From: Haliea sp.
GTDB taxonomy: Bacteria > Pseudomonadota > Gammaproteobacteria > Pseudomonadales > Halieaceae
Length of the DNA stretch: 50,041 nt
Reading direction: 5' to 3'
Assembly: GCA_002862465.1 (NCBI GenBank)
Contig: PKDD01000096.1
Span: 1-50,041, forward strand
In this document: in pieces, positions 34,401-49,157 of the stretch
Position numbering within the stretch: the stretch's first letter is position 1
How the letters are laid out: every line of letters starts with the position of its first letter
Program-made: the position numbers and the translations under genes
The notes under the pieces: generated by a model
Told to the model about the DNA's origin: nothing
Database searches by the model: none
The model's input: the letters and a program-made list of their open reading frames with translations, nothing else

Positions 34401-34515
34401 GCTGGTTGGCACTTTATTTACGCTGTTTCTTATCCCCGTATTTTATTTGCCTTTCACAAAGCGTGGAGTTACGTCGGAGCGTGAAAAAGGCTCTATGGCG
34501 CTGCCTCCCAACTAG
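31462..34515 (+). CDS. RND multidrug efflux permease
   Basis: A 1017-residue HAE1-type RND permease with 12 expected membrane helices and two large periplasmic loops. The opening, FTDHFIKRPVLAIVVSSLLLL, and the helix 4 proton-relay pair Asp398-Asp399 in AIGLVVDDAIVVVENVHRHIEMG are diagnostic. SEFALTLAGAVIVSGIVALTLSPMMCSRVL is the second conserved motif. It pumps substrates from the inner membrane or periplasm using the proton gradient. Substrates are unknown. It is co-transcribed with the adaptor gene. Confidence 0.95.
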   Translation: MAFTDHFIKRPVLAIVVSSLLLLLGGTALSRINLREFPEIERSVIYIATIFRGASARTVQSFVTTPLQVSIAGARGIEYMNSTSHPSISDIEVHVRLGENSSDVLSEVIAKVNEARGDLPREIDDPVVTTVSGGDAMMYLAFFSEQMTPHQITDYLLRNVQPQLATLEGVGKANIFGRFLAMRVWLDPVRMAALGVTATDISDSIQRDNYISTSGDTEGGLVRATVDARTNMKSVADFNKLVVRQVGEKKIRLGDVADVELAAETSQLKTLSSGRDAVFMSIAQSPDANPLDVSREVHAALPSIRENLPADMELFLDWDGSVVIDEALKEVITTLAETSLIVILVIYLFLGSLRVVLIPLVAIPLSLIGVVFLVMAMGFSLNLLTLLAMVIAIGLVVDDAIVVVENVHRHIEMGASPREAALTGAREVALPVVAMTLTLAAVYAPISFIGGLTGALFSEFALTLAGAVIVSGIVALTLSPMMCSRVLKDSEHQGRLANWLDRSFDRLNGQYRRLLSICLKERGAAVLFAASILASLPVLFMLAQQELAPEEDTGGIYVTGVSPRYANIEYTDYFLNDVVNIWKGIPEFSHSWQVISPNGNFGGITLKPWSERQRNQQEVHTEFQKKLGGVAGMQLFSFGTPPLPGFDAGLPVSFVVASTAGYEEVMRVGDELVQAANDSGLFIFITQSLDFDRPEIRVNIDRELAADLGISMQDIGQTLSTMLGESEINRFNLEGRSYKVIPQAARDFRLTKQEMEKYYVRTTSDELVPLSAIISLETNAEPNELTQYQQLNSTTIQGIMMPPNSLGTGLGFLRDKMKEIAPKKFKAGYTGASQRFMQETGAFPILFFLSLVLIFLVLAAQFNSFRDPFIVLLSVPLSIFGAAVPIALGFATLNIYTQIGLLTLIGLISKHGILIVEFSNKLSLQGMSRRDAVLEAASLRLRPILMTTFATVMGVWPLVIATGPGANSRFSIGLMITSGMLVGTLFTLFLIPVFYLPFTKRGVTSEREKGSMALPPN

Positions 34516-34522
34516 CTTCTCA

Positions 34523-34566
34523 ATGTAGACCACGCCCTCTCTAAAAAGGGCTCGAAATGTCTACAT
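34523..34566 (+). repeat. Nested inverted repeat downstream of the RND genes
   Basis: An outer 8-base pair ATGTAGAC / GTCTACAT encloses an inner GCCCT / AGGGC pair (34534-34538 and 34547-34551). There is no T-run, so this is a structured stem-loop more than a classical terminator. Confidence 0.5.
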
Positions 34567-34728
34567 GTCAAGCAAAGCTAGCCGTTCCCCGCTGTCTATG
34601 TTAATTCACAGCATCGTACCTTGCAGTACTCCTGTAGTTTGCGTTTGCTCACAGCAGCATACATATTTAGGCATCAAAGGCACACTAGGGTATATTTGAT
34701 CAACACCGCTTACGACAAGGCAATTATT

Positions 34729-35931
34729 ATGACCGCGATGCATAAAAAACTGTATTTTCGACTCCGTCAATCTCTGGCCAGCACACTCTTCCTAAAACCC
34801 CAGCCAAAACCTTTAGTCTTCACTGGAGAGGGATCTACGGTGCAATTAAGTAAGGCGATAGGTCGCTTTGGTTTAGGAAAAATTTTAGTGGTAACCGACA
34901 AACCTCTACACGACCTAGGAGTTATTAACCCAACACTGGATGCGCTGCATCAAGCTGGCGTGAAAACAGCTATTTTCGATGGCGTACTCCCGGACCCCAC
35001 AGCACAGATAGTCGACAGCGGCATTGACCGCTATCATCAGGAGGGCTGTGACTCCGTCCTAGCATTTGGCGGAGGCTCTTCTATTGATGCAGCAAAAGTC
35101 ATTGCATTGGGCGCCGCCAATGATAGCAACGCAGCGGGTTGCATGGGTATCAACAAATGCAAACTTCCGGCGGTGCCTTTTTTCGCTGTACCGACGACGG
35201 CAGGCACAGGCTCTGAAGCCACATTTATCGCCGTAATTTCAAATAACGAAACGCATGCAAAGGACGCCGTAGTAGATTCCTGCCTCATACCTAAAGCGGC
35301 GGCACTGGATCCGGAAATAATGCGCGGACTGCCAAAACATATTACAGCCGCCACCGGTATGGATGCACTCACTCACGCAATAGAATCTTATATTGGGCGA
35401 TGGGAGACAGAAGATACAAACTATTATGGGCTGGCGGCGTGCCATCTAGTCTTCAACAATCTCGCGGAAGCCTGTCGCAATGGCGAGAATTTGCAGGCTC
35501 GCGAGTCGATGGCACTGGCTTCACATTACGGCGGACTGGCCATCACCAATGCACTGGTGGGGTATGTGCACGCGATTTCTCATAATCTGGGCGCCAAGTA
35601 TGGAGTCCCGCACGGACTGGGAAATGCATTACTGTTACCGCACATACTGGAACTTCTGAAAGACGACGCGACAGAAAAGCTTGCCGATATTGCTGTCTAC
35701 TGTGGAATGGGTGAGCGCTCCGAGGGACCCACAGCACTGACCCGCAAATTAATTGATCAGGTTTGGGCTCTTAATGATGAGATAGGCATTCCGAGAACAA
35801 CTGATGTTATTCGCACAGAAGATATTGAAGAACTAATCACAGCGGCCTTAATCGAAGGCGGAAACTATCCCTCACCACGATTCATTACAAAACATGAGTG
35901 CCGCGAAGTGCTGATGGCCATAAGTGCATAA
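34729..35931 (+). CDS. Iron-containing alcohol dehydrogenase
   Basis: A 400-residue Fe-ADH (group III). It has LAFGGGSSIDAAKVIALGA for the nucleotide-binding glycine loop and VPTTAGTGSEAT. The metal-binding region includes MDALTHAIESYIGRW and YVHAISHNLGAKYGVPHGLGNALLLPHI. It oxidises an alcohol to an aldehyde or the reverse, with NAD(P). The start at the ATG at 34729 with AAGG upstream is preferred over the long frame from 34621, whose first 36 codons are unlike the family. It converges with the ligase gene. Confidence 0.9.
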   Translation: MTAMHKKLYFRLRQSLASTLFLKPQPKPLVFTGEGSTVQLSKAIGRFGLGKILVVTDKPLHDLGVINPTLDALHQAGVKTAIFDGVLPDPTAQIVDSGIDRYHQEGCDSVLAFGGGSSIDAAKVIALGAANDSNAAGCMGINKCKLPAVPFFAVPTTAGTGSEATFIAVISNNETHAKDAVVDSCLIPKAAALDPEIMRGLPKHITAATGMDALTHAIESYIGRWETEDTNYYGLAACHLVFNNLAEACRNGENLQARESMALASHYGGLAITNALVGYVHAISHNLGAKYGVPHGLGNALLLPHILELLKDDATEKLADIAVYCGMGERSEGPTALTRKLIDQVWALNDEIGIPRTTDVIRTEDIEELITAALIEGGNYPSPRFITKHECREVLMAISA

Positions 35932-36027
35932 ACAGGTGGCACTGCTCTTGCTCAACTCTGGTTCCAGAGGTTTTTCTAATATTTTTAATGTTAGGATCAA
36001 CCCTTTTGACTCGTTCAATGTGCCCAG

Positions 36028-37608
36028 CTAGGCCTCGGGAAAATTCGATTCAGCGGGCTTCGTGCCTTTGTCGGCAAGCACCTTAACGCGATACTCTTCC
36101 ACCAGATGACGTTTATACAGTTTACCGTTATCCATTCGCGGTAGCTTCGGATGAAAGTCCACGGAGCGCGGCATCTTGATGCTGGAGATACGTTCGCGCA
36201 GCCATTCTATAATCTCTATGGCAGTCTCATCCGTAGCGTCTGCCCAATTCATCGGCTCGATGACAGCTTTGACCTCTTCCCCAAACTCTTCATTGGGAAT
36301 ACCAAACACGGCCACGTCAGCCACCTTTTCATGGACAGCTAAAATATTTTCAACTTCCTGCGGATAGATATTTACACCGCCGCTGATGATAGTAAAGTTC
36401 TTGCGGTCGGTAAGATATAGATACCCCTCTGCGTCAACATAGCCAACATCGCCTGTTGTTGCCCAGCCTTTGTCATTGTAAGCCTCCTCGGTTTTTTTGG
36501 GCTCGTTATGGTAATGGAAGCTTCTTTGTTGACCGCCGAAATAGACTGTCCCTATTTCCCCCTGCGGCAGTTCGACGCCTTCATCATCGACAATATGTAA
36601 CTCGCCCACTAGCGTCACACCGACCGAACCCCTATGGGTGAGCCAATTGGCAGAATCGATTAACGTAAAGCCGATGCCTTCGCTGGCAGCGTAGTATTCC
36701 ATAATAATCTCACCCCACCATTCGATCATCTTCTCCTTCACTTCGATAGGACATGGCGCAGCAGCATGAATCGCAATTTGCATAGAACTCACGTCATAAC
36801 TCTGTCGCACCTCTTCCGGGAGTTTAAGCAAGCGGTTGAACATAATGGGAACCCATTGGCTGTGGGTGACGCGATGCTCTTCGATCAACTTCAGCGACAA
36901 CTCGGGATCAAACTTTTCCATGATGACCGACGTACCGCCGTTATAGGTCGTCATCATGTTGTAGTGCAGCGGTGCTGCATGATAAAGCGGAGCTGGCGAC
37001 AGGTAGACAGTCTCCTCACCAAAGCCAAATAATACGCCTAGGGTCGGAGCCGCCCACGGTGGCGTATTGACATCCTTCGCATAATCACTAACAAAAACAC
37101 CCTTCGGCTGCCCTGTGGTTCCGGACGAGTAAAGCATGGGTACACCGTTACTCTCATCTTCTATAGGGACATCCGTCTGCGCATCCGTCGCCTCTTCCCA
37201 GGACTCGAAGCCAGGCTTGATGCCACCGACCATATAATAGTGATCGACACCCGTAGACTCTGCCAGCAACTGCTCTGCCACGTCCGACAGCGCAAGTGAA
37301 CCTATAAACAATTTAGCCCCGCAATTTTGCAAAATATAGGCTGTTTCAGTTTTCTTTAAATGAGTACTGACTGGTGTAAAGATCAATCCACTACGCTGGG
37401 CCGCCCAGACGATTTCCAAGAACTGCCGGTTGTTTTCCAGCATCATGCCAATATGATCACCCGACTTTAGACCTAGTGATCGGAACAATTGCGCTGCCTG
37501 ATTAGAACGCTCATCGAGCTCGCGATAGGTTACAATCTCGCCAGTCGAACCCATAATGATGGCCGGTTTATGGGGATAAGTTTTTGCGGTAATACTGGGA
37601 TGCGGCAT
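36028..37608 (-). CDS. AMP-binding acyl-CoA ligase
   Basis: A 526-residue adenylate-forming ligase. The P-loop-like signature YSSGTTGQPKG is at 160-170, the core segment EIIMEYYAASEGIG follows, then AYNDKGWATTGDVGYVD with the hinge Asp in YLTDRKNF. The C-terminal Lys is in KLPRMDNGKLYKRHL. It converts a carboxylic acid to acyl-CoA through acyl-AMP. The sequence fits long-chain or aromatic acid ligases; the substrate is not readable. The ATG at 37608 has GAGGAA upstream. It lies downstream of the TesB gene on the same strand, and the pair could control acyl-CoA entry and release. Confidence 0.9.
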   Translation of the reverse strand: MPHPSITAKTYPHKPAIIMGSTGEIVTYRELDERSNQAAQLFRSLGLKSGDHIGMMLENNRQFLEIVWAAQRSGLIFTPVSTHLKKTETAYILQNCGAKLFIGSLALSDVAEQLLAESTGVDHYYMVGGIKPGFESWEEATDAQTDVPIEDESNGVPMLYSSGTTGQPKGVFVSDYAKDVNTPPWAAPTLGVLFGFGEETVYLSPAPLYHAAPLHYNMMTTYNGGTSVIMEKFDPELSLKLIEEHRVTHSQWVPIMFNRLLKLPEEVRQSYDVSSMQIAIHAAAPCPIEVKEKMIEWWGEIIMEYYAASEGIGFTLIDSANWLTHRGSVGVTLVGELHIVDDEGVELPQGEIGTVYFGGQQRSFHYHNEPKKTEEAYNDKGWATTGDVGYVDAEGYLYLTDRKNFTIISGGVNIYPQEVENILAVHEKVADVAVFGIPNEEFGEEVKAVIEPMNWADATDETAIEIIEWLRERISSIKMPRSVDFHPKLPRMDNGKLYKRHLVEEYRVKVLADKGTKPAESNFPEA

Positions 37609-37678
37609 TGGTTATTCCTCACTCATTTGGCGTGTTCATGCAATACTATAGAAGTTTCCACTGCAAAGTGACAGCGGC

Positions 37679-38518
37679 CTAACGAAACCGCATGACGCCC
37701 TGCTGCATCGTAGTGGCGACGAGCCGTCCTTCCCGGGTGTAAAAATTACCGCTGGCTAGACCCCGGCCGCCACCGATGCGCTCGGCTTTGACGGTATGTA
37801 ATAACCATTCATCGGCACGGAAATCCTCATGAAACCAGAGTACGTGGTCTAGACTCGCGACCTGAAAGCCAACATGTGCAAAATGCCGTCCATGTGCTAC
37901 CAAGCAAGCGTCAAGAAGAACCGCGTCAGAAAAATACGCGAGGACCGCCTGATGCAAACCAAGTTGATCTGGCATCGGCCCAGTAGTCTTCATCCATGCC
38001 TGCAAAACTGGTTCCCGTGCCACCGGATTATCCCAGTCTACTGGCTCTACAAGACGGATATCCAAGTCTTCTCCGGTAGTAATCATAAAGCTTTCGTCCA
38101 GATTTTCGCGCTCCAAGCTCAACTGACGCTCACTAGGCAAGACCTCTGGAGGCGGCACCTGCGGCATATCAGGCTGATAGTCATCACCGGTGGACGGCAT
38201 TTGGAATGACAACGAACTGACCAAAATAGGCTTTCCTCCCTGCAGCGCGACCACACGGCGGGAACTGAAGCTCAGACCGTCTCGGGCAACCTCTACTTCC
38301 AATATAATGGGTTTAGTTGGATCGCCTGGACGCAAAAAATAAGCATGCTGTGAATGCACAATACGGTCAGTAGCCACGGTTTCCACCGCAGCACTGACGC
38401 ATTGCGCTAGCACCTGACCACCATAAACTCTGAAAGCAGCGGGATGCATATTGCCAGCACTAAATTTATTTTCACCCATAGGCTGGGGCGTTAGAACGTC
38501 GAGGAGTGTATTGAGCAC
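37679..38518 (-). CDS. tesB: Acyl-CoA thioesterase II (TesB)
   Basis: A double-hotdog thioesterase of about 279 residues. It matches the E. coli TesB pattern: RVYGGQVLAQCVSAAVETV, HSQHAYFLRPGDPTKPI, RDGLSFSSRRVVALQGGKPI, LAYFSDAVLL (position of the catalytic Asp), SLDHVLWFHEDFRADEWLLH and TTMQQGVMRF with the catalytic Gln. The Thr of the E. coli catalytic triad is Ser here, in VASLDHV. It hydrolyses acyl-CoAs. The GTG at 38518 gives a family-like N-terminus; the frame is open to an ATG at 38593, which would add 25 residues. It is divergent from the DUF1445 gene. Confidence 0.88.
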   Translation of the reverse strand: MLNTLLDVLTPQPMGENKFSAGNMHPAAFRVYGGQVLAQCVSAAVETVATDRIVHSQHAYFLRPGDPTKPIILEVEVARDGLSFSSRRVVALQGGKPILVSSLSFQMPSTGDDYQPDMPQVPPPEVLPSERQLSLERENLDESFMITTGEDLDIRLVEPVDWDNPVAREPVLQAWMKTTGPMPDQLGLHQAVLAYFSDAVLLDACLVAHGRHFAHVGFQVASLDHVLWFHEDFRADEWLLHTVKAERIGGGRGLASGNFYTREGRLVATTMQQGVMRFR

Positions 38519-38676
38519 GATTGCTACCAGATTGCTAATTAAGGCGCTATTATCCAGATTTGTGCACCAATGCCAAACACCGTTTGGTAACATCTATTCG
38601 CAGCAATCTGCGTCAACGTCGATAAATTTGATATTCTCGACACCGCAGGCAGTATCGAATGAACAAAGGAACAACA

Positions 38677-39459
38677 ATGCCCAGCACATTAACGCCAGAT
38701 GAACTGCGCCAAGCGATACGTTCGGGAGCCTACACAGAGAACACCTCGGGCATGGCAGTGGGCTTCGTGCAATGCAACGTGGTGATTCTCCCCGCAGGAA
38801 ATGCCAGCGATTTTTTACGTTTTTGCCAAGCAAATCCAAAGCCTTGCCCAATCATTGCAGTAGGAGATGCAGGCGCTACCGCGTTGCCTGGACTGGGAAA
38901 TATCGATATCCGCACCGATGTGCCCCGCTACTGCGTGTTCCGTCAGGGCAAAATGACAGAAGAGGTCACGGATATCACGGCACTGTGGCGCAATGATCTC
39001 GTAAGTTTTGCGCTGGGTTGTTCATTTTCTTTTGAAGAGGCGTTAGTAGCGAGTGGATTGGAGGTACGTAATGTGAGCCAAGGGCTGAACGTGCCCATGT
39101 ATCAAACCAATATTGACTGCACTAATGCCGGACCTTTCTCCAGTAAAATGGTGGTCAGCATGCGACCGTTCACCGCCAGCGATGCCATTCGCGCTATTCA
39201 AATCTGTACACGGTTTCCGGCAGTGCATGGCGCGCCAATTCACTTGGGCAATCCGAGCTTAATAGGCATTGGGGATCTGGAGCGGCCTGATTTTGGTGAT
39301 GCCGTGCAGATACATGATACCGAAATTCCCTTGTTCTGGGCCTGTGGCGTTACGCCACAAGTAGCTTTGGCTTCGGCCAGGCTGCCCTTTGCCATCACCC
39401 ACAGCCCCGGGTGCATGCTAATCACTGACGTGCGCAACAGCCAACTAGCAGTGCTATAA
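38677..39459 (+). CDS. DUF1445 protein, D-glutamate cyclase first domain
   Basis: A 260-residue protein of the DUF1445/putative hydro-lyase family. Conserved parts are [58 protein letters not shown] and a late [14 protein letters not shown]. In animals this domain forms the N-terminal half of DGLUCY, which dehydrates D-glutamate to 5-oxo-D-proline. Here the two DGLUCY domains are separate proteins (the second is at 41825). The ATG at 38677 follows AAAGGA. It opens the operon and lies 15 bases before pxpA. Confidence 0.85.
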
Positions 39460-39474
39460 CAATAGAGGAAATCA

Positions 39475-40206
39475 ATGCAACTCAACTGTGATCTAGGCGA
39501 AAGTTATGGCAGTTGGCATATGGGGCATGATGCTGCAGTTATGCCCTATATCGACCAAGCGAGTATCGCTTGCGGATTCCACGCAGGCGACCCAGTGACT
39601 ATGCGTAATACACTGACAATGGCTGCAAAGCACAACGTTGCAATCGGCGCTCATCCCGCCTACCCCGATATTACCGGTTTTGGTCGTCGCAGCATGACAC
39701 TGAGCCGTGATGAAATCATTGCCTGCCTGCACTATCAGGTGTCAGCATTGGAAGGCATGGCCCAGAGTCAGGGGTTAGCCCTTGCCTATGTCAAACCGCA
39801 CGGTGCCCTCTACCACGATATGATGGCGCAGGAGGACGTACGCGCCGCTATTTTTGATGCGATGGCCAGCTACTATCGCCCACTGACATTGATGCTCCAG
39901 TCTACGCAGCGTGCCGATAAGCACAGAGAGGAAGGGAAATTAGCCGGTGTAAAGTTATTGTTTGAAGCATTCGCAGACCGCTGCTATGCCGACGATGGCA
40001 GTCTTGTACCCAGAAGCCAGCCAGGCGCCATACACAGCCGCGATCATATGCTAGCGCAGGTGCAGCAATTACGGTGTGACAGTAGCGTAACGAGCTTGAG
40101 TGGCGACCGCATTGGGCTACAAGTTGACACCGTTTGCGTGCACGGGGACAACCCCGAAGGCATACACTCCATCGCAGCGATTCGTGCTTTGTTAGATGGC
40201 GACTGA
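39475..40206 (+). CDS. pxpA: 5-oxoprolinase subunit A
   Basis: A 243-residue LamB/YcsF family protein, close to the 244 residues of E. coli PxpA. It starts MQLNCDLGESYGSWHMGHDAAVMPYIDQASIACGFHAGDP and has AYVKPHGALYHDMM with the conserved His pair. With PxpB and PxpC it forms the ATP-dependent 5-oxoprolinase that opens 5-oxoproline to glutamate. GAGGAAA precedes the ATG. It is 6 bases ahead of pxpB. Confidence 0.92.
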   Translation: MQLNCDLGESYGSWHMGHDAAVMPYIDQASIACGFHAGDPVTMRNTLTMAAKHNVAIGAHPAYPDITGFGRRSMTLSRDEIIACLHYQVSALEGMAQSQGLALAYVKPHGALYHDMMAQEDVRAAIFDAMASYYRPLTLMLQSTQRADKHREEGKLAGVKLLFEAFADRCYADDGSLVPRSQPGAIHSRDHMLAQVQQLRCDSSVTSLSGDRIGLQVDTVCVHGDNPEGIHSIAAIRALLDGD

Positions 40207-40212
40207 ATCACC

Positions 40213-40893
40213 GTGAAACTGCGTATAGTCGGCGAGGGTGCCCTAATGATTTATTTTGGAGACGCCATAGATGCTCAGACCTCCATTCGCGTTCAGGCGG
40301 CGACCAACGCTATCGAACATGCGATGCGCGAGGACATTATCGATTTGGTGCCCTCCTACGCCTCCGTCTTAGTGCTCTATAATCCCCTGCACAGCGATTA
40401 CATAAAGATCGCAAGCCGCTTACGCAATGTGCTAGCTCATGCACCCACGCCCAGCGGGCAAGAGCATCGTACTGTCGTGCTGCCGGTATACTATGGCACC
40501 GAAGCAGGCATAGATCTCGAGTCTTTGGCGGAGCGCGCCGACTTATCGATCAATAAAGTGATCGACCTCCATACAGATGCTGAATACAAGGTCTATGCGA
40601 TCGGTTTCGCGCCCGGCTTCGCCTACTTGGGAGAAGTGGATGAGCGCATTGCGGCACCTCGTCTGATGACGCCTAGGGCTAGTGTTCCCCGCGGCTCAGT
40701 TGCCATCGCCGATCGACAAACTGCCGTTTATCCTGCCGCATCGCCCGGTGGGTGGAACCTGATCGGTCGCTGCCCAACACCCATGTTTGATCCCGATATC
40801 CAGCCCTGCATGCCGGTATCGATCGGTGACACAGTTCGCTTTGAAGCGATCAGCCGCGAGCATTTTCTGACATTGGGAGGCGATCTCGCGTGA
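40213..40893 (+). CDS. pxpB: 5-oxoprolinase subunit B
   Basis: A 226-residue PxpB/KipI-like protein. It has the family pattern GEGALMIYFGDAI, VPSYASVLVLYNP, VLPVYYGTEAGIDLESLAE and YAIGFAPGFAYLGEVDERIAAPRLMTPRASVPRGSVAIAD with the C-terminal GGWNLIGRCP. It forms the ATP-dependent 5-oxoprolinase with PxpA and PxpC. The start is a GTG. The stop overlaps the pxpC start by four bases. Confidence 0.92.
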   Translation: MKLRIVGEGALMIYFGDAIDAQTSIRVQAATNAIEHAMREDIIDLVPSYASVLVLYNPLHSDYIKIASRLRNVLAHAPTPSGQEHRTVVLPVYYGTEAGIDLESLAERADLSINKVIDLHTDAEYKVYAIGFAPGFAYLGEVDERIAAPRLMTPRASVPRGSVAIADRQTAVYPAASPGGWNLIGRCPTPMFDPDIQPCMPVSIGDTVRFEAISREHFLTLGGDLA

Positions 40894-41825
40894 GTATGCG
40901 TGTACTTGAACCGGGCATGCTCAGTCTGCTGCAGGATAGTGGACGGCAAGGCCAGCACCGCCTAGGCCTGAGCAATGGCGGACCAATGGATCGTGAGGCA
41001 TTCCGCTATTGCAATCATCTACTGCAAAACTCGCTCAACTGCACCGCCATCGAAATCAGTGTTGGTGGCCTGCAGTTGGAGACTCTTGTCGACACCTATA
41101 TTTGCCTTACCGGTGCGCCGATGCCGCTGAGCATTAACGGCCGAGAAAAGCCTTTGTGGGAGGTTCAGCGCATCTGCGCCGGAGACACAATACGGGTTGG
41201 ATTTGCGAAAGCGGGATGTCGTAGTTATTTAGGCGTGGCTGATGGCTTTAGCATAGAAGCACGTTTTGGCAGTACAGCAACAGTGGTAAGGGAAAATATC
41301 GGAGGCTTACGAGGGCGCAGTTTACAGACCGGCGATGAACTGCCCTGCCCGGTCACACGCGCGCGCAAACAGTATTATTTAGCGGACAGGGACAGGCCTC
41401 GCTATCAAAAGATGTTGACTGTGCGCGTTATCCCTGGGTACCAGCAGCGTCATTTCGACAGAGTGGAACAGCGCCGATTTTTTGGTAGCACCTACACCAT
41501 ATCCGAGCACTGCGATCGTATGGGCTATCGACTAGAGGGCCCTGCCATATCATGTAATATCGAGGGAATATTATCTGAAGGCATCTGCTTTGGTGCAATT
41601 CAACTGCCGCCGGATGGACAACCGATTATATTGCTCAATGATCGTCAGACCATCGGGGGCTACCCGAAAATTGGCGCGGCCTTGTCGCTGGATGTTGCAC
41701 GCATGACCCAATTGGTTCCGGGTAGCAGCGTTCACTTTGCACCCATAACGCACCATACCGCACGCAAGGTGCTTGAGTTATCTGAGCGTTTCACCCTGCA
41801 TAAAATTCTGCAGGAGCGTTACTAG
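40890..41825 (+). CDS. pxpC: 5-oxoprolinase subunit C
   Basis: A 311-residue PxpC/KipA-like protein (310 in E. coli). It shows VLEPGMLSLLQDSGRQGQHRLGLSNGGPMDREAF, CLTGAPMPLSINGRE, SYLGVADGF and VIPGYQQRHF. The later SDRMGYRLEGP-type segment reads CDRMGYRLEGP, followed by LPPDGQPIILLNDRQTIGGYPKIGAAL. It shares the 5-oxoprolinase role with the two preceding subunits. It starts at a GTG overlapping the pxpB stop and ends overlapping the next gene by one base. Confidence 0.92.
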   Translation: MSMRVLEPGMLSLLQDSGRQGQHRLGLSNGGPMDREAFRYCNHLLQNSLNCTAIEISVGGLQLETLVDTYICLTGAPMPLSINGREKPLWEVQRICAGDTIRVGFAKAGCRSYLGVADGFSIEARFGSTATVVRENIGGLRGRSLQTGDELPCPVTRARKQYYLADRDRPRYQKMLTVRVIPGYQQRHFDRVEQRRFFGSTYTISEHCDRMGYRLEGPAISCNIEGILSEGICFGAIQLPPDGQPIILLNDRQTIGGYPKIGAALSLDVARMTQLVPGSSVHFAPITHHTARKVLELSERFTLHKILQERY

Positions 41826-42706
41826 TGCAGGATCAGCAACTCAGCGAATCCATTGAGCAGTTATTGGTGTCTAGTAATCCGCGTCACATGGCTGCCGCGC
41901 AAGCAGCGCTGCCGCCCGGCTATTATTTGCGGGCAGCCAAACATCTGCGAGACGCGACCGGCACAGTTATTATTGCCACTGGATTTCCGGTGTCTGGCAC
42001 CTTTGAAACCGATGGACCGGTCGGCGCCATAGCACTTTACCAAACTCTAGAGTCGCTGGGCGCAAGGCCCTATATCGCATGTGGATCACTACTGGCTCAG
42101 GCACTTGTTGCACGTTATCGCGTAATAGAATTGACCGCACGTAGCCGAGAGACGGCATTCATAGAAGCGACAAAGCAATTATCGACCTTGCGACCTCAAG
42201 CTATTGTCGCGATAGAGCGTCCAGGGATTGCCGCAGATGGCTGTTACTATAATATGCGAGGGGAAGACATTACCGCAGATTGCGTCTATTTTGACCCCTT
42301 CATCAGTCAAGCTAATTGTCCTACTATTGCAATTGGCGACGGTGGCAATGAAATCGGCATGGGCAATATAGCCAAAACGCTGGCGCACATTAACATCAAG
42401 GCCTCGGTTACCTGCTGCAATGAACTGTTAGTAGCTGATGTCTCCAACTGGGGGGCTTATGGCCTCATCGCTTTTTTGGGCTTATGGTCGCAACAGGACT
42501 TATTGGCGCGCATCTCGCCGGGAGAACTGTTTAACTATCTGTCTGCCCGCGGCAGCGTTGATGGCGTAACCGGAAAAAATACGCTCACCGAAGACGGGCT
42601 ATCGCCCTTTGAGGGAATAAAGATTATTGAGCAATTGCGCGTGCTCACACATTTTTCCCCACGCATAACACAGCGCGACTGCATTCAAAAAAGGGTACAT
42701 AAATGA
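41825..42706 (+). CDS. DUF4392 protein, D-glutamate cyclase second domain
   Basis: A 293-residue protein of the DUF4392 family. Typical elements are ATGFPVSGTFETDGPVGAIAL, AIERPGIAADGCYYNMRGEDI and the hallmark IAIGDGGNEIGMGNIAKTL. The C-terminal DGVTGKNTLTEDGLSPFE is also usual. This domain is the C-terminal half of DGLUCY. Together with the DUF1445 protein it completes a split D-glutamate cyclase within the pxp operon, which is unusual against the fused animal form. The GTG at 41825 overlaps the pxpC stop by one base; the gene overlaps the transaminase by four. Confidence 0.85.
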   Translation: MQDQQLSESIEQLLVSSNPRHMAAAQAALPPGYYLRAAKHLRDATGTVIIATGFPVSGTFETDGPVGAIALYQTLESLGARPYIACGSLLAQALVARYRVIELTARSRETAFIEATKQLSTLRPQAIVAIERPGIAADGCYYNMRGEDITADCVYFDPFISQANCPTIAIGDGGNEIGMGNIAKTLAHINIKASVTCCNELLVADVSNWGAYGLIAFLGLWSQQDLLARISPGELFNYLSARGSVDGVTGKNTLTEDGLSPFEGIKIIEQLRVLTHFSPRITQRDCIQKRVHK

Positions 42707-43560
42707 GTATTGTTTATCTAAACGGCAATTATATACCGATGAATGAGGCCCGCATCTCGCCGATGGATCGCGGCTTCCTATTCGGTGACGGTATTTATGA
42801 GGTAATACCCTCCTACAACGGCAAGCTTGTCGCTCTAGCGCCGCACCTTAAACGTATGCAAAACGGATTAGACGAAATAGAAATCGAACTACAAATAGAT
42901 TATGACCATTGGCAAGAAATTGCGTTACAACTAATTGCGCGCAATGGCAGTGGCAACCTAGGACTCTATTTTCAAATCAGCCGCGGCGCTGACACGAAGC
43001 GAGACCACGCCTATCCTGATAAAGTGGAACCGACTGTTTTTGTTTTCACCTACGAAATCCCGCCAGCACCGAAAGCAGACAAAACTTCTGCAACACCCTT
43101 ATCTGTTGTAACTGCTGAGGACCTGCGCTGGCAACGTTGCCATATTAAATCTACGTCACTGTTGGGCAATGTTATGCATTATCAGCAAAGCCAGCCCGGC
43201 GGACACAACGAAACGATTTTGTATAACGATGTACATGAAATTACAGAAGCTTCTAAAAGCAACGTGTATGTAATCAAAAATGGCGTAGTTGCCACGCCGC
43301 TACTAGACAATCAGAAGTTAGCGGGTGTTACGCGGAAGACCCTACTTGAGATTTTGCGTCGCGATGGCAATATAGCGGTCGAAGAGCGCATAGTAACACT
43401 CGCTGAATTAAAAGACGCAGATGAGGTATGGCTTTCCAATTCTACTCGAGATATTGTTCCAGTAATAGCCGTAGATGAAAAGCCCGTCGCCGATGGCCAC
43501 ATTGGGGATGTATGGCTAGCGGCGCAAACACTCTATGCCACTCACAAGTTTGACCACTGA
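42703..43560 (+). CDS. dat: D-amino acid transaminase
   Basis: A 285-residue class IV PLP transaminase that matches the Bacillus D-amino acid transaminase at each key position. MDRGFLFGDGIYEV (Tyr32), the R-x-H substrate-carboxylate motif at 100-102 (Arg100, His102), the PLP lysine Lys149 (RCHIKSTSLLGNV) and Glu182 (EITEASKSNV) are all present. It transfers the amino group between D-alanine and 2-oxoglutarate, giving pyruvate and D-glutamate, with other D-amino acids usable. Its products are thus fed to the D-glutamate cyclase and oxoprolinase in the same operon. It overlaps DUF4392 by four bases and alr by one. Confidence 0.9.
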   Translation: MSIVYLNGNYIPMNEARISPMDRGFLFGDGIYEVIPSYNGKLVALAPHLKRMQNGLDEIEIELQIDYDHWQEIALQLIARNGSGNLGLYFQISRGADTKRDHAYPDKVEPTVFVFTYEIPPAPKADKTSATPLSVVTAEDLRWQRCHIKSTSLLGNVMHYQQSQPGGHNETILYNDVHEITEASKSNVYVIKNGVVATPLLDNQKLAGVTRKTLLEILRRDGNIAVEERIVTLAELKDADEVWLSNSTRDIVPVIAVDEKPVADGHIGDVWLAAQTLYATHKFDH

Positions 43561-44639
43561 TGGCCCGGCCCAATCAAGCAAAACTGAACCTTAGCGCGTT
43601 ACGACATAATGTCTGCCTGGCGCGCAAGTTGGCACCACGATCCAAAGTGATGGCGGTTGTCAAAGCCAATGCCTATGGCCACGGCGCCGCAATAATTGCC
43701 GGCGCACTCCAATCCAGCGTGGATGCTTTGGCTGTTGCCAGTATCGAGGAGGCCGCTGCGCTTCGTGATTCCGGCGTTACATGTCCCATTCTTCTTTTGG
43801 AGGGTCTGTTCGATGAATCCGAATTAGGCATTGCGAGCCAACTTAACGTCTGGCTAAGCATCCACAACGAGCGACAACTGCAGTGGCTAGAAGGGGCTGC
43901 ATTGTCTGCGCCCGTGACCTGCTGGCTTAAGATCGACACGGGCATGAATCGTCTTGGCGTCACACCAGATAAAGCCTTGCACTATCATCAACGACTAGTG
44001 GCCACACCCAATGCTGCTAACGGCACAGTCGCCTATACGCACTTCGCCTCGGCAGATGATTTACAAAATCTACAAACGCAGCGACAGATCGATGCCTTCG
44101 ATAGCTTGAATTTTGACGTAGCACGCAGCGCGGCTAATTCTGCGGCATTACTTGCTTGGCCAACTACACATTATGAATGGGTGCGACCGGGTTACATGCT
44201 GTATGGGAATTGTCCCATGGCACAGGGCCATCCCAATGCTCAAACACTGAAACCGGTCATGACACTGACTTCCGCAGTGATCGCCCTGCATGACGTTGCT
44301 GCGGGTGAATCTGTCGGATACGGCGGCACTTGGGTTGCACAGCGCCCCTCTGTCATTGCCACAGTGACTATCGGCTATGGCGATGGCTATCCCCGCGAAG
44401 CGCTCAATGGGACACCGATACTTGTCAACGGACAACGCGCCACACTTGCCGGTCGCGTCTCTATGGACATGATTACTGTCGATGTCACAGATGTCGAACA
44501 TGTCCAGCTTGGCACCGAAGTCGTGCTGTGGGGCCCAGACCTGCCTCTGGCAGAAGTCGCTCGCTGGACCAACACTATCGGTTACGAACTCACAACGCGC
44601 ATGCCGCAGCGCACACCGAGGGTTGTCGTCAATGCCTAA
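43560..44639 (+). CDS. alr: Alanine racemase
   Basis: A 359-residue fold III PLP alanine racemase. Lys35 in VVKANAYGHG is the PLP lysine, and Tyr254 in SVGYGGTW is the second catalytic base. WLKIDTGMNRLG, VRPGYMLYG, GYGDGYPREAL and GRVSMDMITVDVT are conserved. It interconverts L- and D-alanine. In this operon the D-alanine made would feed the transaminase to give D-glutamate, a catabolic use like that of DadX, but a cell wall supply role is possible. The ATG shares its A with the last base of the transaminase TGA. Confidence 0.95.
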   Translation: MARPNQAKLNLSALRHNVCLARKLAPRSKVMAVVKANAYGHGAAIIAGALQSSVDALAVASIEEAAALRDSGVTCPILLLEGLFDESELGIASQLNVWLSIHNERQLQWLEGAALSAPVTCWLKIDTGMNRLGVTPDKALHYHQRLVATPNAANGTVAYTHFASADDLQNLQTQRQIDAFDSLNFDVARSAANSAALLAWPTTHYEWVRPGYMLYGNCPMAQGHPNAQTLKPVMTLTSAVIALHDVAAGESVGYGGTWVAQRPSVIATVTIGYGDGYPREALNGTPILVNGQRATLAGRVSMDMITVDVTDVEHVQLGTEVVLWGPDLPLAEVARWTNTIGYELTTRMPQRTPRVVVNA

Positions 44640-44704
44640 TCGACAAGTAGTAATCCATGCGCTGCCCATCATGTGCATGGAAGGCCTGCATCAGCGAGGT
44701 CAAT

Positions 44705-46225
44705 ATGCTATCTGGTGACCCGACTTGCACCCTACTCCATCATTTAATTGAACGACACGCCGACGAGCAACCTGACAGTATCGCGTTATGGTGGCAAGGG
44801 AGCGCGATCGACTATGCCAGTCTATACCGCAACGCCATGTCTACGGCAAGACGCTTAGCCGCCAGTGGCGATGTAGGCGATCGCATCGCCGTTTTATCAT
44901 GGAACTGCCCACAGTTTGTAGAGCTAATTTATGGCGTCACTGCCGCGGGCAGAATACTCGTGCCTCTGAACGCCAGACTTGCGCCCGCAGAATTGACCTA
45001 TCAACTGAAATCGGCCCGCGCCACTGCACTCTTCGGAGACCGAGAATTACTTGAACCTTTGCTAGCACATGCCGACTTCCCACCGACTACTGAGATTGTT
45101 TACCTAGACGAGGACTATATCAACTGGCGAGAATCTATCACTCGTAAACAGCTGCCCGCGACTAGCCCTGAGGATCCAGCATGGATACTATTCACTTCGG
45201 GTTCCACCGGCCGACCCAAAGGAGCAATGTTAAGCCACCGCGCCTTTATGGCCGCATTACGCTCGGCGGCACTATCCCGACCGGTACAACCATCCGATAA
45301 ATACTACTATCCATTCCCATTATTTCATGTATCTGCTCACAATGTACTGCTGCAACATTTATACGGTGCTGCGGTCGTACTGGCGCGATCGTTTGATGCC
45401 GCTGACACCCTCAAAGCCTGCATTGAACTGCAAGTAACGACAATGTCCCTCGCGCCGACTATGATCGCCTTATTGTTGGATCACCCAGCTTTCACCCCCA
45501 TGCATCTTAACTCAGTGCGCACTATTGGCTATGGCGCATCTGCTATGCCACAAACACTGTTGCAGAGACTGCTAGCGGGCACCGATGTAGGTCTGTGCCA
45601 GAGTTACGGCATGACAGAATTGGCCGGGAGTGTCTCGTTCCTCACGGTAGAGGATCATCAACGAGCCGCCGCAGACCGGCCGGAGTTACTTCAGTCTGTG
45701 GGCCGACCTCTTCCTACAGCACAACTCAAATTGCTCGACGAACAGGGTCGCGAATGTGCCTCAGGTGAAGCCGGAGAAATTTTAGTCAGGGCCCCACAGT
45801 GTATGACGGGATACTGGGATGACGATGCGGCCACCACACTTGCAATAACCGACGGCTGGTTACGCACCGGCGACATCGGTCGCTTTGACGACAACGGCTA
45901 TCTATACATCGTGGACCGCAAGAAAGACATGATTATCAGCGGCGGAGAAAATATTGCCTCACGAGAAATAGAGGAAGTATTACGCCAACATTCGTCAGTA
46001 AGCGATTGCGCGATCATCGGCTTGCCGCACCCTAAGTGGGGCGAAAGTCCCTTAGCCGTGGTCCGACTCAGGAGCGCTATAAGCGACTCAGAGCTTCATG
46101 CGCACTGCCGTGCAAACCTAGCCAGCTACAAAATTCCGAAACGATGGATACGCGTCGACGGTCTGCCTCTGAACGCATCTGGAAAAGTTGACAAGCCACT
46201 ACTGAGAGAGCTCTACACAGTCTAG
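44705..46225 (+). CDS. AMP-binding acyl-CoA ligase
   Basis: A 506-residue adenylate-forming enzyme. The signature LFTSGSTGRPKGAML is at 162-176, with QSYGMTELAGSV, TGDIGRFDDNGYLYIVDRKKDMIISGGENIASREIEEVL and the C-terminal Lys in LPLNASGKVDKPL. The pattern suits medium/long-chain or aryl acid-CoA ligases. The ATG at 44705 is chosen because GAGGT lies five bases upstream; the frame to 44657 adds 16 residues. It follows alr by 65 bases and could belong to the operon, but no link to D-amino acid metabolism is evident. The stop is 2 bases from the convergent transporter stop. Confidence 0.9.
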   Translation: MLSGDPTCTLLHHLIERHADEQPDSIALWWQGSAIDYASLYRNAMSTARRLAASGDVGDRIAVLSWNCPQFVELIYGVTAAGRILVPLNARLAPAELTYQLKSARATALFGDRELLEPLLAHADFPPTTEIVYLDEDYINWRESITRKQLPATSPEDPAWILFTSGSTGRPKGAMLSHRAFMAALRSAALSRPVQPSDKYYYPFPLFHVSAHNVLLQHLYGAAVVLARSFDAADTLKACIELQVTTMSLAPTMIALLLDHPAFTPMHLNSVRTIGYGASAMPQTLLQRLLAGTDVGLCQSYGMTELAGSVSFLTVEDHQRAAADRPELLQSVGRPLPTAQLKLLDEQGRECASGEAGEILVRAPQCMTGYWDDDAATTLAITDGWLRTGDIGRFDDNGYLYIVDRKKDMIISGGENIASREIEEVLRQHSSVSDCAIIGLPHPKWGESPLAVVRLRSAISDSELHAHCRANLASYKIPKRWIRVDGLPLNASGKVDKPLLRELYTV

Positions 46226-46227
46226 CG

Positions 46228-47310
46228 CTAGCTATTGTCCTGTGAATCGAGGAAGTCGGAAAACGCATTCTCGTAAAGTTTGAATAACACCAATGCAAGC
46301 GAAAACACTAGGGGTCCATAAATAAGGCCAATCAATCCGAACACCTGAAGACCTCCAATAATGGAGAAAAACACCACCACAGTACTCATGCTGGCACCCT
46401 GCATCAACAATGGACGTAAAAAATTGTCTATTGACCCTGTCACCACAACGCCCCACACGACTAAAAATCCTGCCCAACCCAATTCTCCTGTAAACACTAA
46501 ATACAGCGCAGCTGGAACCCAAATCAATGCTGTCCCCACCAGAGGTATTAGCGAGGTAAAAGCCATTACAGCACCCCAGAAAAGGCCCGGAAATCCGGCG
46601 AGCCATAAACCAAACCCTCCAACAACACCCTGCGCAACGGCGGTTAAGAAAGAGCCCATTAAAGCAGATTTGCTCACCGCTTGAACTTCGTTAAACAGTG
46701 TTTCTTCTGCACTGCGTGACAACGGCAAAGCGCGATATATAAAGGCGATCAATTTTTGATGGTCGCGCAGCACAAAAAATAATACGAACAGCAATAGCAC
46801 AAAATTTATTAGGAATCGGGTCATACTACCCAATATCGATGTCGATATTCCGGCAAAATGGGTCCCTATTGCTCCTGCAGTAGCTAGTGCTTTGGCGCGA
46901 ATGTTGTCGGGGTCTAATGCGCCATCTGGCAAAATCTGCGTCACCCGCAACTGGGCGTTATGCAGCCAAGGATGCGACATCATCTGGTGTATATTATCTG
47001 AGGTCGCCCATTCCCGAACGGTGACAGAATAGCTAATGCCCTGCTTAAGGACAGCAATCAATAACACCAATGTAGGCAATAGAATGATTAATAACAACGC
47101 TAGACAACTGATAAGGGAGGCGAGATTTTCGCGCCCTCGCAATACAGAAACTAATCGCTCATGAGCTGGATATGCCAATAAGCCGATCAATATCGCCATA
47201 ATAATCGGCTGCAGGAAAGGTTTGATCATCCAGTAGCAGCCATACAATGCGAGTGCAAGAAAAATCAGCAACACCACGCGATGTGCGTTACCCTCAAACT
47301 GAGACTGCAT
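46228..47310 (-). CDS. AI-2E family transporter (PerM-like)
   Basis: A 360-residue membrane protein of the AI-2E/PerM family with about eight hydrophobic segments. Conserved are MIKPFLQPIIMAILIGLLAYP at the N-terminus, FVLLLFVLFFVLRDHQKL, and the late GVVVTGSIDNFLRPLLMQGASMS with IIGGLQVFGLIGLIYGPL. Despite the name, substrates are mostly unknown. The ATG at 47310 is preceded by AAAGAGAG; the frame continuing to 47349 adds 13 residues. It converges with the ligase with a two-base gap. Confidence 0.9.
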   Translation of the reverse strand: MQSQFEGNAHRVVLLIFLALALYGCYWMIKPFLQPIIMAILIGLLAYPAHERLVSVLRGRENLASLISCLALLLIILLPTLVLLIAVLKQGISYSVTVREWATSDNIHQMMSHPWLHNAQLRVTQILPDGALDPDNIRAKALATAGAIGTHFAGISTSILGSMTRFLINFVLLLFVLFFVLRDHQKLIAFIYRALPLSRSAEETLFNEVQAVSKSALMGSFLTAVAQGVVGGFGLWLAGFPGLFWGAVMAFTSLIPLVGTALIWVPAALYLVFTGELGWAGFLVVWGVVVTGSIDNFLRPLLMQGASMSTVVVFFSIIGGLQVFGLIGLIYGPLVFSLALVLFKLYENAFSDFLDSQDNS

Positions 47311-47636
47311 AGGTGTGCTCTCTTTACCGCTATATAGGCAAGACAACATAGCGCTTTTTCACAAAAAATCAACGCATACATGCCGTCTAAATAAAAAGTG
47401 CGCTCAGCCTAGACTGTATTTATAAGCATAGCGTTCACAGGCGCATGCCACCAGAAACGTAAACACCGGTAGAGCTTTTCAAGAATACATGCCATCGTCA
47501 TCCAGAACATGAACACAGCCGCCGCAGATATCTATGCCACCGCGCGCTTAGTCTTGAATCCCCCTGCAAAAATCGTACGGATTTGCCAACGGCACTTTTA
47601 GTGGCATAATTGCTGCCCATCAGGTCAATGAAGCTT
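47311..47636. other. Intergenic stretch, possible gene remnant
   Basis: About 326 bases between the divergent AI-2E and thiolase-like genes. On the minus strand, a frame near 47484-47547 reads GGCVHVLDDDGMYS and then, after a frameshift, another near 47443-47490 reads SSTGVYVSGGMRL before a stop. These look like two pieces of one gene end, possibly an SDR-type C-terminus. Nothing else was recognised; the promoters of both flanking genes must lie here. Confidence 0.25.
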
Positions 47637-49157
47637 ATGAATATTTCAGATAACACTCCAGTCATTATAGGCGTTGGGCAACAAACTTGGCGGTCAACCG
47701 ATGTGGCGAGAACGCCCCTAGACGCGCTCTGCTCAGCCGCAGAGGTTGCTATCGCTGACACGGGACAAGATGGCTTAACGTCTGCCATCGATACCGTTGC
47801 CATGATTAGATTTATTGCCGACACTACGCCAGGCACCGGTGCACTGTTCCCTCGCAATCCCGGCAGACACTTAAGCCGTCGCCTCGGCATTAATGATGCG
47901 ACAATTTTTCAGGGTACGATCGGCGGCAATACTCCACAGTATCTGGTCAATCATTTTGCTGAAAAACTGGCGCACGGCGATCACAACGTTGTCTTGCTCG
48001 CAGGCGCAGAACTGCTTGCAACCCTATTTTCAGCGCTGCGCTCTGGGGAGGATATTTCTGCTTGGAGCGGGGAGGCAGAGGCGCAACCGGTAACGGTGGG
48101 ACACGAACGAGAGGGACATAACGCCGTAGAGATGACACATGGGCTTTACGAGCCGATCAATACATATCCGCTATTCGAGAATAGCCTGAGACATCACCTT
48201 GGCAACACCCAAGAGCATCACACGGCTCGCATCGCAGAGATTTGCAGCAGCATGAGCTTGGTGGCTGCGAGCAATCCCCATGCGTGGAAACAGCAATTTC
48301 AGAGCGCAGAAGAGGTTGGCACCGTAGCGCAACGGAATCGTTTTATCGGGTACCCCTACACTCGCGCTATGAATCCGATTCTGGAAGTCGACATGGCCGC
48401 CGCGGTCATTATGACAACGGCGGGCAAAGCCCGTCAGCTAGGCATCGATCAGAGCACCTGGATATACTTCCGTGGCGGCGCTGACGTTAACGATATTTGG
48501 CATGTTAGCGAACGCCCTAGCCTGCATACCTCGCCCGCTATCAAGACGGCATGGGAGTCAGTCTCTGCGCGCTCTGGCATTGCTTTAGATGAAATTTCAC
48601 ACTTCGATATCTACAGTTGTTTTCCCAGCGCAGTAGAGATTGCCTGCAACGAAATTGGGCTGTCGCCACTCGACAGCCGCGGGATCACTGTCACTGGCGG
48701 TCTGCCCTTCTTCGGCGGACCGGGCAATAACTACTCTCTGCACGCGATTGCACAAATGATCACCGCTTTACGCAAAACAGGTGGGGGCCATGGATTGGTC
48801 ACGGCCAATGGTCTGTACCTGACGAAGCACTCGTTAGGCATCTATTCGACAGAGCCTCCCACTGATGATTGGCAAGACATGGACCGCCGGTCGCTGCAGC
48901 AACATATCGATGTCGCTCCACGACTGCCAGTGGCCTCAGATCCTGCGGGTCTTGCAACCATAGAGACTTATACTGTTAGCTTTGACCGAGAAGGTCCGAA
49001 ACGAGGAATTGTTATCGGACGGAATCCAGCAGGCGAGCGGATTATTGCCAACACCAGCAGCGACATTGACACTCTGAACCAGCTGTTAGCGCAAAGCCCG
49101 ATTGGGCAAACTGGAAAGATCCATGTCAAAGACGGGATCAATCTATTCGAAATATAA
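47637..49157 (+). CDS. Thiolase-like SCP2-type protein lacking the nucleophilic Cys
   Basis: A 506-residue thiolase-fold protein (annotated elsewhere as acetyl-CoA acetyltransferase). The body has FQGTIGGNTPQYLVNHFAE where true thiolases have their CGSG nucleophile, so the usual Cys is absent. Later it has FDIYSCFPSAVEIACNE, VTGGLPFFGGPGNNYSLHAIA and NGLYLTKHSLGIYS. The last retains the His region but without a Cys partner. It may be a thiolase-like aldolase or hydrolase, or a non-catalytic partner in side-chain degradation. The function is unsure. The start at the ATG at 47637 is uncertain; ATGs at 47610 and 47628 are in frame. Confidence 0.75.
   Translation: MNISDNTPVIIGVGQQTWRSTDVARTPLDALCSAAEVAIADTGQDGLTSAIDTVAMIRFIADTTPGTGALFPRNPGRHLSRRLGINDATIFQGTIGGNTPQYLVNHFAEKLAHGDHNVVLLAGAELLATLFSALRSGEDISAWSGEAEAQPVTVGHEREGHNAVEMTHGLYEPINTYPLFENSLRHHLGNTQEHHTARIAEICSSMSLVAASNPHAWKQQFQSAEEVGTVAQRNRFIGYPYTRAMNPILEVDMAAAVIMTTAGKARQLGIDQSTWIYFRGGADVNDIWHVSERPSLHTSPAIKTAWESVSARSGIALDEISHFDIYSCFPSAVEIACNEIGLSPLDSRGITVTGGLPFFGGPGNNYSLHAIAQMITALRKTGGGHGLVTANGLYLTKHSLGIYSTEPPTDDWQDMDRRSLQQHIDVAPRLPVASDPAGLATIETYTVSFDREGPKRGIVIGRNPAGERIIANTSSDIDTLNQLLAQSPIGQTGKIHVKDGINLFEI

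Follow-up and report, generated by a model that had tools for sequence, protein, structure and literature searches.

The subject of this work is a group of seven genes from Haliea sp. (Gammaproteobacteria, Halieaceae), found in a stretch of 50,041 nucleotides (contig PKDD01000096.1 of assembly GCA_002862465.1) which is called the window throughout. The genes encode a DUF1445 protein, the 5-oxoprolinase subunits PxpA, PxpB and PxpC, a DUF4392 protein, the class IV transaminase Dat and the alanine racemase Alr. Taken together, our data lead us to favour, with moderate confidence, the view that the operon serves D-glutamate homeostasis and unites a supply branch (Alr-Dat) with a return branch (DUF1445, DUF4392 and PxpABC). 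The first of these parts is the firmer one: gene content makes it likely that Alr and Dat supply D-alanine and D-glutamate for the cell wall, while the evidence is somewhat in favour of the other proteins draining or repairing surplus D-glutamate and 5-oxoproline.

D-glutamate is essential to nearly every bacterial wall, and glutamate racemase (MurI) is its usual maker. According to the scheme proposed here, Alr would convert L-alanine to D-alanine, and Dat would transfer the amino group of D-alanine to 2-oxoglutarate, yielding D-glutamate and pyruvate; this D-glutamate would feed MurD and so replace the missing MurI in Halieaceae. Surplus D-glutamate would be cyclised to 5-oxoproline by the DUF1445 and DUF4392 proteins, and PxpABC would convert 5-oxoproline, including that formed spontaneously, to glutamate at the expense of adenosine triphosphate (ATP). 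We infer from sequence all of the enzymatic activities, the direction of flux and the entry of 5-oxo-D-proline into the L series. Co-transcription of the maker and the destroyer of one compound would be sensible if the reversible Dat escapes the throttling that is possible for MurI.

Glutamate racemase, dat and alr in Halieaceae

MurI was searched with the glutamate racemase model TIGR00067 at its curated cut-off, a search that detects the Escherichia coli and Bacillus subtilis controls. No match over the cut-off was found in 59 of the 60 Halieaceae genomes, five of which have weak matches below it, and the sole genome with MurI over the cut-off (G065) is an assembly of 420 contigs with 3% contamination. 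The genome of the window itself (G000; a 3.3-Mb assembly of 182 contigs, 97.8% complete) gave no MurI match at all. A single alr over the cut-off is present in 58 of the 60 genomes, two being found in G048 and none in G010, and the operon alr (TIGR00492, 368 vs 168 bits) is the only alanine racemase over the cut-off in its genome. Matches to dat (E 1e-40 or better) were likewise obtained in 58 of the 60 genomes; they are absent in G010 and in G021, where the alr piece starts at a contig end.

For the analysis of gene neighbourhoods 58 loci of the family were taken, one per genome, and their open frames were searched with the window proteins; left out were the window genome and G010 (74% complete, without a DUF4392 or alr match). 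The dat gene adjoins alr in 57 of these loci, and the 58th is an alr fragment at a contig end. In two of them, L075 (G057) and L081 (G063), dat-alr stands alone and the five other genes are gone from the locus; these two genomes have no DUF4392 match genome-wide and no MurI over the cut-off. A role in wall biosynthesis is therefore suggested for dat-alr, because MurI is missing, alr is single and the pair persists without the five others.

The relation between dat and the absence of MurI reaches beyond the family. An order-wide table of 341 genomes was cleared of 4 with partial MurI matches; of those left, 79 of 92 MurI-negative and 43 of 245 MurI-positive genomes have dat (Fisher p 1.4e-31, overstated since the genomes are related). 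The proportions are 64/77 vs 43/245 when the own family is left out, and 10/10 vs 4/26 when one genome is taken from each of the 36 other families (Fisher 3.9e-6, overstated for the same reason). In addition, 28 named loci were picked from the best 80 of 531 relatives ranked by DUF4392, and MurI over the cut-off is absent in 20 of the 27 genomes of this selection that could be searched and that carry the operon or parts of it.

The residues of the ligase that uses glutamate for the wall point in the same direction. The window genome encodes one MurD over the cut-off (414 bits) and no second one, with weaker Mur-ligase-like matches beside it on contig C66. When aligned with E. coli MurD (1e0d), this protein keeps Asp182, Lys319, Lys348 and Ala414, and passages of the MurD2 study (PMC8788868) tie the first three positions to the choice of the glutamate enantiomer. 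Where a MurD of the L-glutamate type (MurD2) has Glu and Arg, in the positions corresponding to D182 and K348 of E. coli, the window MurD has Asp and Lys. Because MurD keeps the residues of the D-glutamate type, free D-glutamate is probably needed by the wall, and because D-glutamate is needed and MurI is missing, Dat would be the best candidate for its source.

The sequence of Dat is compatible with this assignment. R100-x-H102, K149 and Y32 are invariant in an alignment of 13 sequences, and the R-x-H motif aligns with that of D-alanine aminotransferase 9pxs. We take the motif to be the carboxylate trap known as R98/H100 in Bacillus numbering, and K149 is presumably the lysine that binds pyridoxal phosphate.

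Gene order and the proteins of the proposed return branch

The seven-gene set is found in the same order in 45 of the 58 Halieaceae loci, a count that includes L054, whose DUF4392 stop-to-stop frame begins upstream of pxpC. Contig ends truncate seven of the 13 incomplete loci (L034, L048, L052, L056, L069, L078, L083), DUF1445 is missing from L053 and L068, pxpBC is missing at L071 and L087, and L075 and L081 were described above. In other families of the same order, all seven genes are present in G024, G032 and G089 (L092, L094, L096), while G026 (L093) has pxpA-DUF4392-dat-alr; in G033 (L095) a single unrelated gene separates pxpABC from dat-alr, and the DUF genes are missing from the locus.

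Among the 80 named loci ranked best of 531 relatives by DUF4392, in which genomes are partly repeated, all seven genes stand in order at 26, two of them at contig ends, and six genes without alr at another 26. Three further six-gene loci lie at contig ends, where alr is possibly cut off in two, and L156 and L167 hold DUF1445-pxpABC-DUF4392, their orientation being upset by an unrelated dat-like match. Carriers of the six-gene form include Marinobacterium, Amphritea, Neptuniibacter, Colwellia, Psychrosphaera and Arsukibacterium, and we infer that this form is the older one and that alr joined it later. A gene that by eye resembles a LysR regulator separates DUF4392 from dat at L131 and L147, which have six genes, and at L127, L133 and L139, which have seven; at the six-gene locus L136 of Amphritea, DUF4392 and dat are about 4 kb apart and several genes lie between them. 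In Pseudoalteromonas a shorter set, DUF1445-pxpA-DUF4392-dat, stands behind a glycoside hydrolase family 3 (GH3) gene; the two GH3 proteins that were scanned are NagZ-like and score 182 and 190 vs 207 bits for the family cut-off. Near the operon of Psychrosphaera (L174, 12282-13577, - strand) lies a gene for anhydro-N-acetylmuramic acid kinase, over one family cut-off. The first-pass annotation, which was made from the letters of the window, had proposed to check co-occurrence across genomes, and the order conserved across the family loci and the named relatives rules out a chance arrangement.

Both domains of mammalian D-glutamate cyclase (DGLUCY) are present in the operon, PF07286 and PF14336, as two separate proteins whose genes flank pxpABC. 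Judged by these Pfam domains, DUF1445 is the counterpart of the N-terminal and DUF4392 of the C-terminal half of DGLUCY. Purified recombinant mouse DGLUCY converts D-glutamate to 5-oxo-D-proline according to passages of PMC5339696, and the fused animal domains were suggested to carry out linked steps in passages of PMC5132392.

The model of the DUF1445 protein has a predicted local distance difference test (pLDDT) score of 90, and its best fold match is 2PIF (Z 33.4, root-mean-square deviation (rmsd) 2.5, 249 aligned), then 3DB9; later matches are the NrpR-like 3NEK (Z 9.7, rmsd 3.1, 159 aligned) and PII-like proteins with Z near 5-7. Cys57, Cys115 and Cys223 of this protein are invariant among 23 sequences. 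The model of the DUF4392 protein (pLDDT 92) is closest to Thermococcus TON_0340 (Z 35.4, rmsd 2.1, 254 aligned), and phosphoesterases such as RecJ follow (Z 11.5, rmsd 3.5, 163 aligned); we take these RecJ-type matches to be members of the DHH family. Residues E59, D61, D157 and E161 of TON_0340 (counted in chain 4fc5) align with E61, D63, D172 and E176 of the window protein, which are invariant among 14 sequences; of the six metal ligands of TON_0340, E59 and D157 are those named in passages of PMC5132392.

In rhizobia, distant DUF4392 genes have RidA and a Thr/Ser dehydratase-like gene as neighbours, or else transporter genes close by, so that the DUF4392 family is not universally tied to pxpABC. 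At L199 and L202 the rhizobial DUF4392 gene lies between the dehydratase-like gene and RidA, which may hint at the chemistry that DUF4392 proteins carry out. At L203 of Sinorhizobium sp. CCBAU 05631 two genes annotated as glutamate cyclase domain proteins flank an annotated selenocysteine synthase, and genes for an amino acid ATP-binding cassette transporter then follow.

All three PxpABC subunits are encoded by adjacent genes. PxpC is below the cut-off of the 5-oxoprolinase equivalog NF045499 (210 vs 500 bits) and above that of the broader TIGR00724, which describes the 5-oxoprolinase/urea amidolyase family at the domain level. Five genomes that lack pxpBC at the locus (G053, G069, G026, G105 and Pseudoalteromonas lipolytica) encode a PxpC-type (PF02626) protein elsewhere; in G053 and G069 this protein matches the window PxpC weakly, with about 119 bits. 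The idea that PxpA works without PxpBC is unsupported, as all five genomes without pxpBC at the locus have such a protein. In G057 and G063 the pxpBC or pxpABC genes are found at other loci. At L208 of G063 a gene that by eye encodes an NRAMP-like transporter is followed by pxpA-pxpB-pxpC, an arrangement that recalls B. subtilis, where a manganese importer gene shares the pxp operon.

Weighing of the explanations

Several observations weigh against D-glutamate homeostasis as the function of the operon, in addition to the relatedness of the genomes that inflates the Fisher values. Window Dat lies under the cut-offs of the D-amino-acid transaminase models (NF005209, 249 vs 320; TIGR01121, 219 vs 277), which are nonetheless its best-scoring models, and in two family genomes, G061 and G350, dat is split over two frames, which may be sequencing error or true decay. 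Many of the order-wide dat proteins are 33-48% identical to window Dat, so that the link with MurI concerns dat in general, and at eleven other dat loci (L097-L107) the gene is alone, with no operon around it in L097-L105. Thirteen of the 92 MurI-negative genomes of the order have no dat match (G098, G117, G134, G162, G212, G218, G221, G254, G279, G312, G327, G366, G383). MurI is present in 7 of the 27 searched named genomes with the operon or parts of it (two of Aestuariicella, two of Neptuniibacter, and Psychrosphaera, Arsukibacterium and Pseudoalteromonas), so that the operon does not require MurI to have been lost. The window MurD has Phe at the place of E. coli Leu416, as MurD2 does, though passages of PMC8788868 report that a change at this position in MurD2 left stereospecificity unaltered. 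For the return branch, the archaeal DUF4392 protein TON_0340 is reported in passages of PMC5132392 as a Mn2+-dependent phosphatase, inactive as D157L or E59Q, and not as a cyclase. Moreover, inversion of 5-oxo-D-proline is not a known activity of any of the operon's proteins.

The last point matters because PxpABC, if it opened 5-oxo-D-proline without inversion, would only give D-glutamate again with ATP spent; net disposal of D-glutamate needs an inversion step. It may be that PxpABC takes 5-oxo-L-proline only and that 5-oxo-D-proline exits the cell, or the DUF1445 or DUF4392 protein may invert 5-oxo-D-proline, an option that is less favoured because the fused mouse enzyme goes no further than 5-oxo-D-proline. 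One could extend the second option to the whole operon and see in it a closed two-way inversion of glutamate: Alr and Dat would make D-glutamate, DUF4392 would cyclise it, DUF1445 would act as a cofactor-free 5-oxoproline epimerase with Cys115 and Cys223 as the acid/base pair, and PxpABC would draw the reaction to L-glutamate using ATP. In the DUF1445 model each of the two cysteines ends a strand directly before a helix. Contrary to what a duplicated two-cysteine racemase would lead one to expect, the halves of DUF1445 show no internal repeat (hhalign probability 0.2, score 12, with at least 8 of 40 column-shuffled controls above 12 and the best at 24), and no racemase fold is found in its list of fold matches. 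The formation of 5-oxo-D-proline by the fused mouse enzyme weakens this extension further, and we consider it quite improbable.

D-glutamate homeostasis has also to be compared with three rival explanations. The first-pass annotation had read the operon as a catabolic chain from L-alanine via D-alanine, D-glutamate and 5-oxo-D-proline to glutamate, serving D-amino acid or peptidoglycan recycling. Every named gene family is indeed present, the two scanned proteins of the GH3 genes before the Pseudoalteromonas set resemble a beta-N-acetylhexosaminidase, if slightly under the cut-off, and the LysR-like gene that parts DUF4392 from dat at several loci of Marinobacterium, Neptuniibacter, Aestuariicella and relatives suits inducible scavenging in these organisms. 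However, the missing MurI and the single alr make it most likely that Alr and Dat serve the wall at least, and dat-alr is kept alone in G057 and G063. L-alanine can, besides, go straight to pyruvate. The final step from 5-oxo-D-proline to glutamate fails as it was written, since D-glutamate is returned unless it is inverted; the first-pass annotation had mentioned this gap among its grounds for refutation only. The catabolic route was therefore not upheld, and we regard it as a doubtful explanation of low probability.

A different division of labour would see two independent modules that share only a glutamate pool, dat-alr working for the wall and DUF1445-pxpABC-DUF4392 repairing 5-oxoproline and stray D-glutamate. 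The genomes offer some arguments for such a separation: G057 and G063 have only dat-alr at the locus and carry pxpBC or pxpABC in other places, G033 has pxpABC and dat-alr without DUF genes at the locus, and the five genomes with pxpBC off the locus encode their PF02626 protein elsewhere. The B. subtilis pxpABC genes stand in an operon with ycsG and ycsI (passages of PMC10448178). Against this, DUF4392 and dat are linked across the Halieaceae, Marinobacterium-like and Colwellia-like loci beyond what a shared metabolite would lead one to expect, and independence of the modules seems unlikely to us. The remaining explanation is that the wall receives its D-glutamate from MurD2/MurL, or from DapF acting as a glutamate racemase, and that dat is catabolic. 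Both routes are documented, the former in passages of PMC8788868 and the bifunctional DapF in PMC5885031, and the 13 MurI-negative, dat-negative genomes of the order would fit them. Yet the one MurD of the window genome is canonical, with the D182/K348 equivalents and no second protein over the cut-off, and the strong link between dat and the absence of MurI would be unexpected; judging from MurD, MurI and dat, we hold this explanation to be very improbable.

Locus layout, related systems and significance

The assignments of all seven genes made in the first-pass annotation agree with Pfam, where every operon protein exceeds its family cut-off, and the grouping of the D-glutamate, 5-oxoproline, Dat and Alr genes that it described stands, as does their compact packing: in gene order, the first two gaps measure 15 and 6 bases, and the four junctions after them are overlaps of 4, 1, 4 and 1 bases. 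In NCBIfam five of the seven proteins reach some curated cut-off (DUF1445, PxpA, PxpB, PxpC and Alr), and the DUF4392 protein has no match. No RNA element of Rfam exceeds its gathering score in window positions 34000-48000, and the counts of promoter and terminator patterns are within one standard deviation of shuffles. The ligase gene downstream of alr may be co-transcribed with the operon and is probably outside the pathway. On the other side, divergent from the operon, a FadD4-like acyl-CoA ligase and a TesB-like thioesterase are encoded at 36031-38593 on the - strand; a homologue of the ligase lies upstream in 42 of the 58 family loci and the thioesterase in fewer, some loci being cut.

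Table 1. Genes of the operon (38677-44639) and the ligase gene that follows it, with the family evidence for each.
Feature	Position	Strand	Evidence and remarks
DUF1445 / PF07286 D-Glu_cyclase, 260 amino acids	38677..39459	+	Pfam 217 bits; over the cut-off of NCBIfam PRK05463
pxpA, 5-oxoprolinase subunit A, LamB_YcsF	39475..40206	+	PF03746 293 bits; over the cut-offs of NCBIfam PxpA subfamilies
pxpB, 5-oxoprolinase subunit B, CT_C_D	40213..40893, GTG start	+	PF02682 238 bits; over the cut-off of TIGR00370
pxpC, 5-oxoprolinase subunit C, CT_A_B	40890..41825, GTG start	+	PF02626 276 bits; over the cut-off of TIGR00724
DUF4392 / PF14336 GLUCM-like_C, 293 amino acids	41825..42706, GTG start	+	Pfam 218 bits; TON_0340-type metal enzyme
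dat, class IV transaminase, Aminotran_4	42703..43560	+	PF01063 172 bits
alr, alanine racemase	43560..44639	+	PF01168/PF00842 212/152 bits; over the cut-off of TIGR00492
AMP-dependent acyl-CoA ligase gene	44657..46225	+	starts 17 bases past alr

Parts of this system have been described in other organisms. The key 5-oxoprolinase paper is said to be that of Niehaus from 2017, and Mortuza reportedly described in 2018 a Dat-based D-glutamate supply in Mycobacterium smegmatis. To our knowledge the B. subtilis pxp operon is without DUF4392, dat and alr, and its YcsI is presumably a DUF1445 protein. As passages of PMC10448178 describe it, that operon resembles ours in joining the 5-oxoprolinase genes with ycsI, and differs from it by the manganese importer ycsG, for which the window operon has no counterpart. 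Mammalian DGLUCY (C14orf159) shares the DUF1445 and DUF4392 domains with the window operon but is one fused mitochondrial protein, whereas here two genes lie on either side of pxpABC; in the passages of PMC5339696 and PMC5132392, cyclase activity is published for the fused mouse protein only. Split homologues of human DGLUCY are tabulated in gut bacteria (passages of PMC12547972). TON_0340, the closest solved structure to the window DUF4392 protein, whose mapped metal ligands are kept, is described in passages of PMC5132392 as a manganese-dependent phosphatase with its natural substrate unassigned, unlike the cyclase role proposed here.

D-amino acid aminotransferases are named as a general alternative to MurI in passages of PMC8788868, and such a supply, in which Dat makes D-glutamate from 2-oxoglutarate, resembles the one proposed for the window; the difference is that the proposal made here extends to an entire family of Gammaproteobacteria and that dat and the only alr are part of an operon for the cyclase and 5-oxoprolinase. 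MurD2/MurL of Xanthomonas is a further MurI-independent way to a D-glutamate wall in Gammaproteobacteria, but in passages of the same paper it adds L-glutamate and later epimerises it, whereas the window genome has a MurD of the D-glutamate type. In the open-access literature, with most subscription journals outside it, no report was found that brings together 5-oxoprolinase, D-glutamate, alanine racemase and transaminase, and "glutamate cyclase" with "5-oxoprolinase" gave one work only, the one with the gut-bacteria table. By a search for terms, the main text of a 2023 paper on Halieaceae genomics (PMC10100682) is without peptidoglycan, racemase, D-amino, glutamate or 5-oxoproline, and the 2026 Corynebacterium pxp paper (PMC13274462) is without D-glutamate or racem. 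Dat as a source of D-glutamate, the pxp operon with ycsI and split DGLUCY are already known, and what is new is their combined setting.

A whole family of marine bacteria has seemingly exchanged MurI for a transaminase that is encoded in one operon with enzymes destroying D-glutamate. Halieaceae thus offer a natural test case for the control of a wall precursor without MurI, and the operon places the domains of human D-glutamate cyclase, which are poorly understood, in a bacterial setting. Should the inversion of glutamate by the whole operon prove true, this would be an energy-driven D-to-L racemisation of glutamate in a lineage that lacks MurI. The proposed supply predicts that dat is essential in Halieaceae and that its deletion would produce D-glutamate auxotrophs. 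It also calls for caution with marine metagenomes, in which MurI should not be presumed to be the source of D-glutamate.

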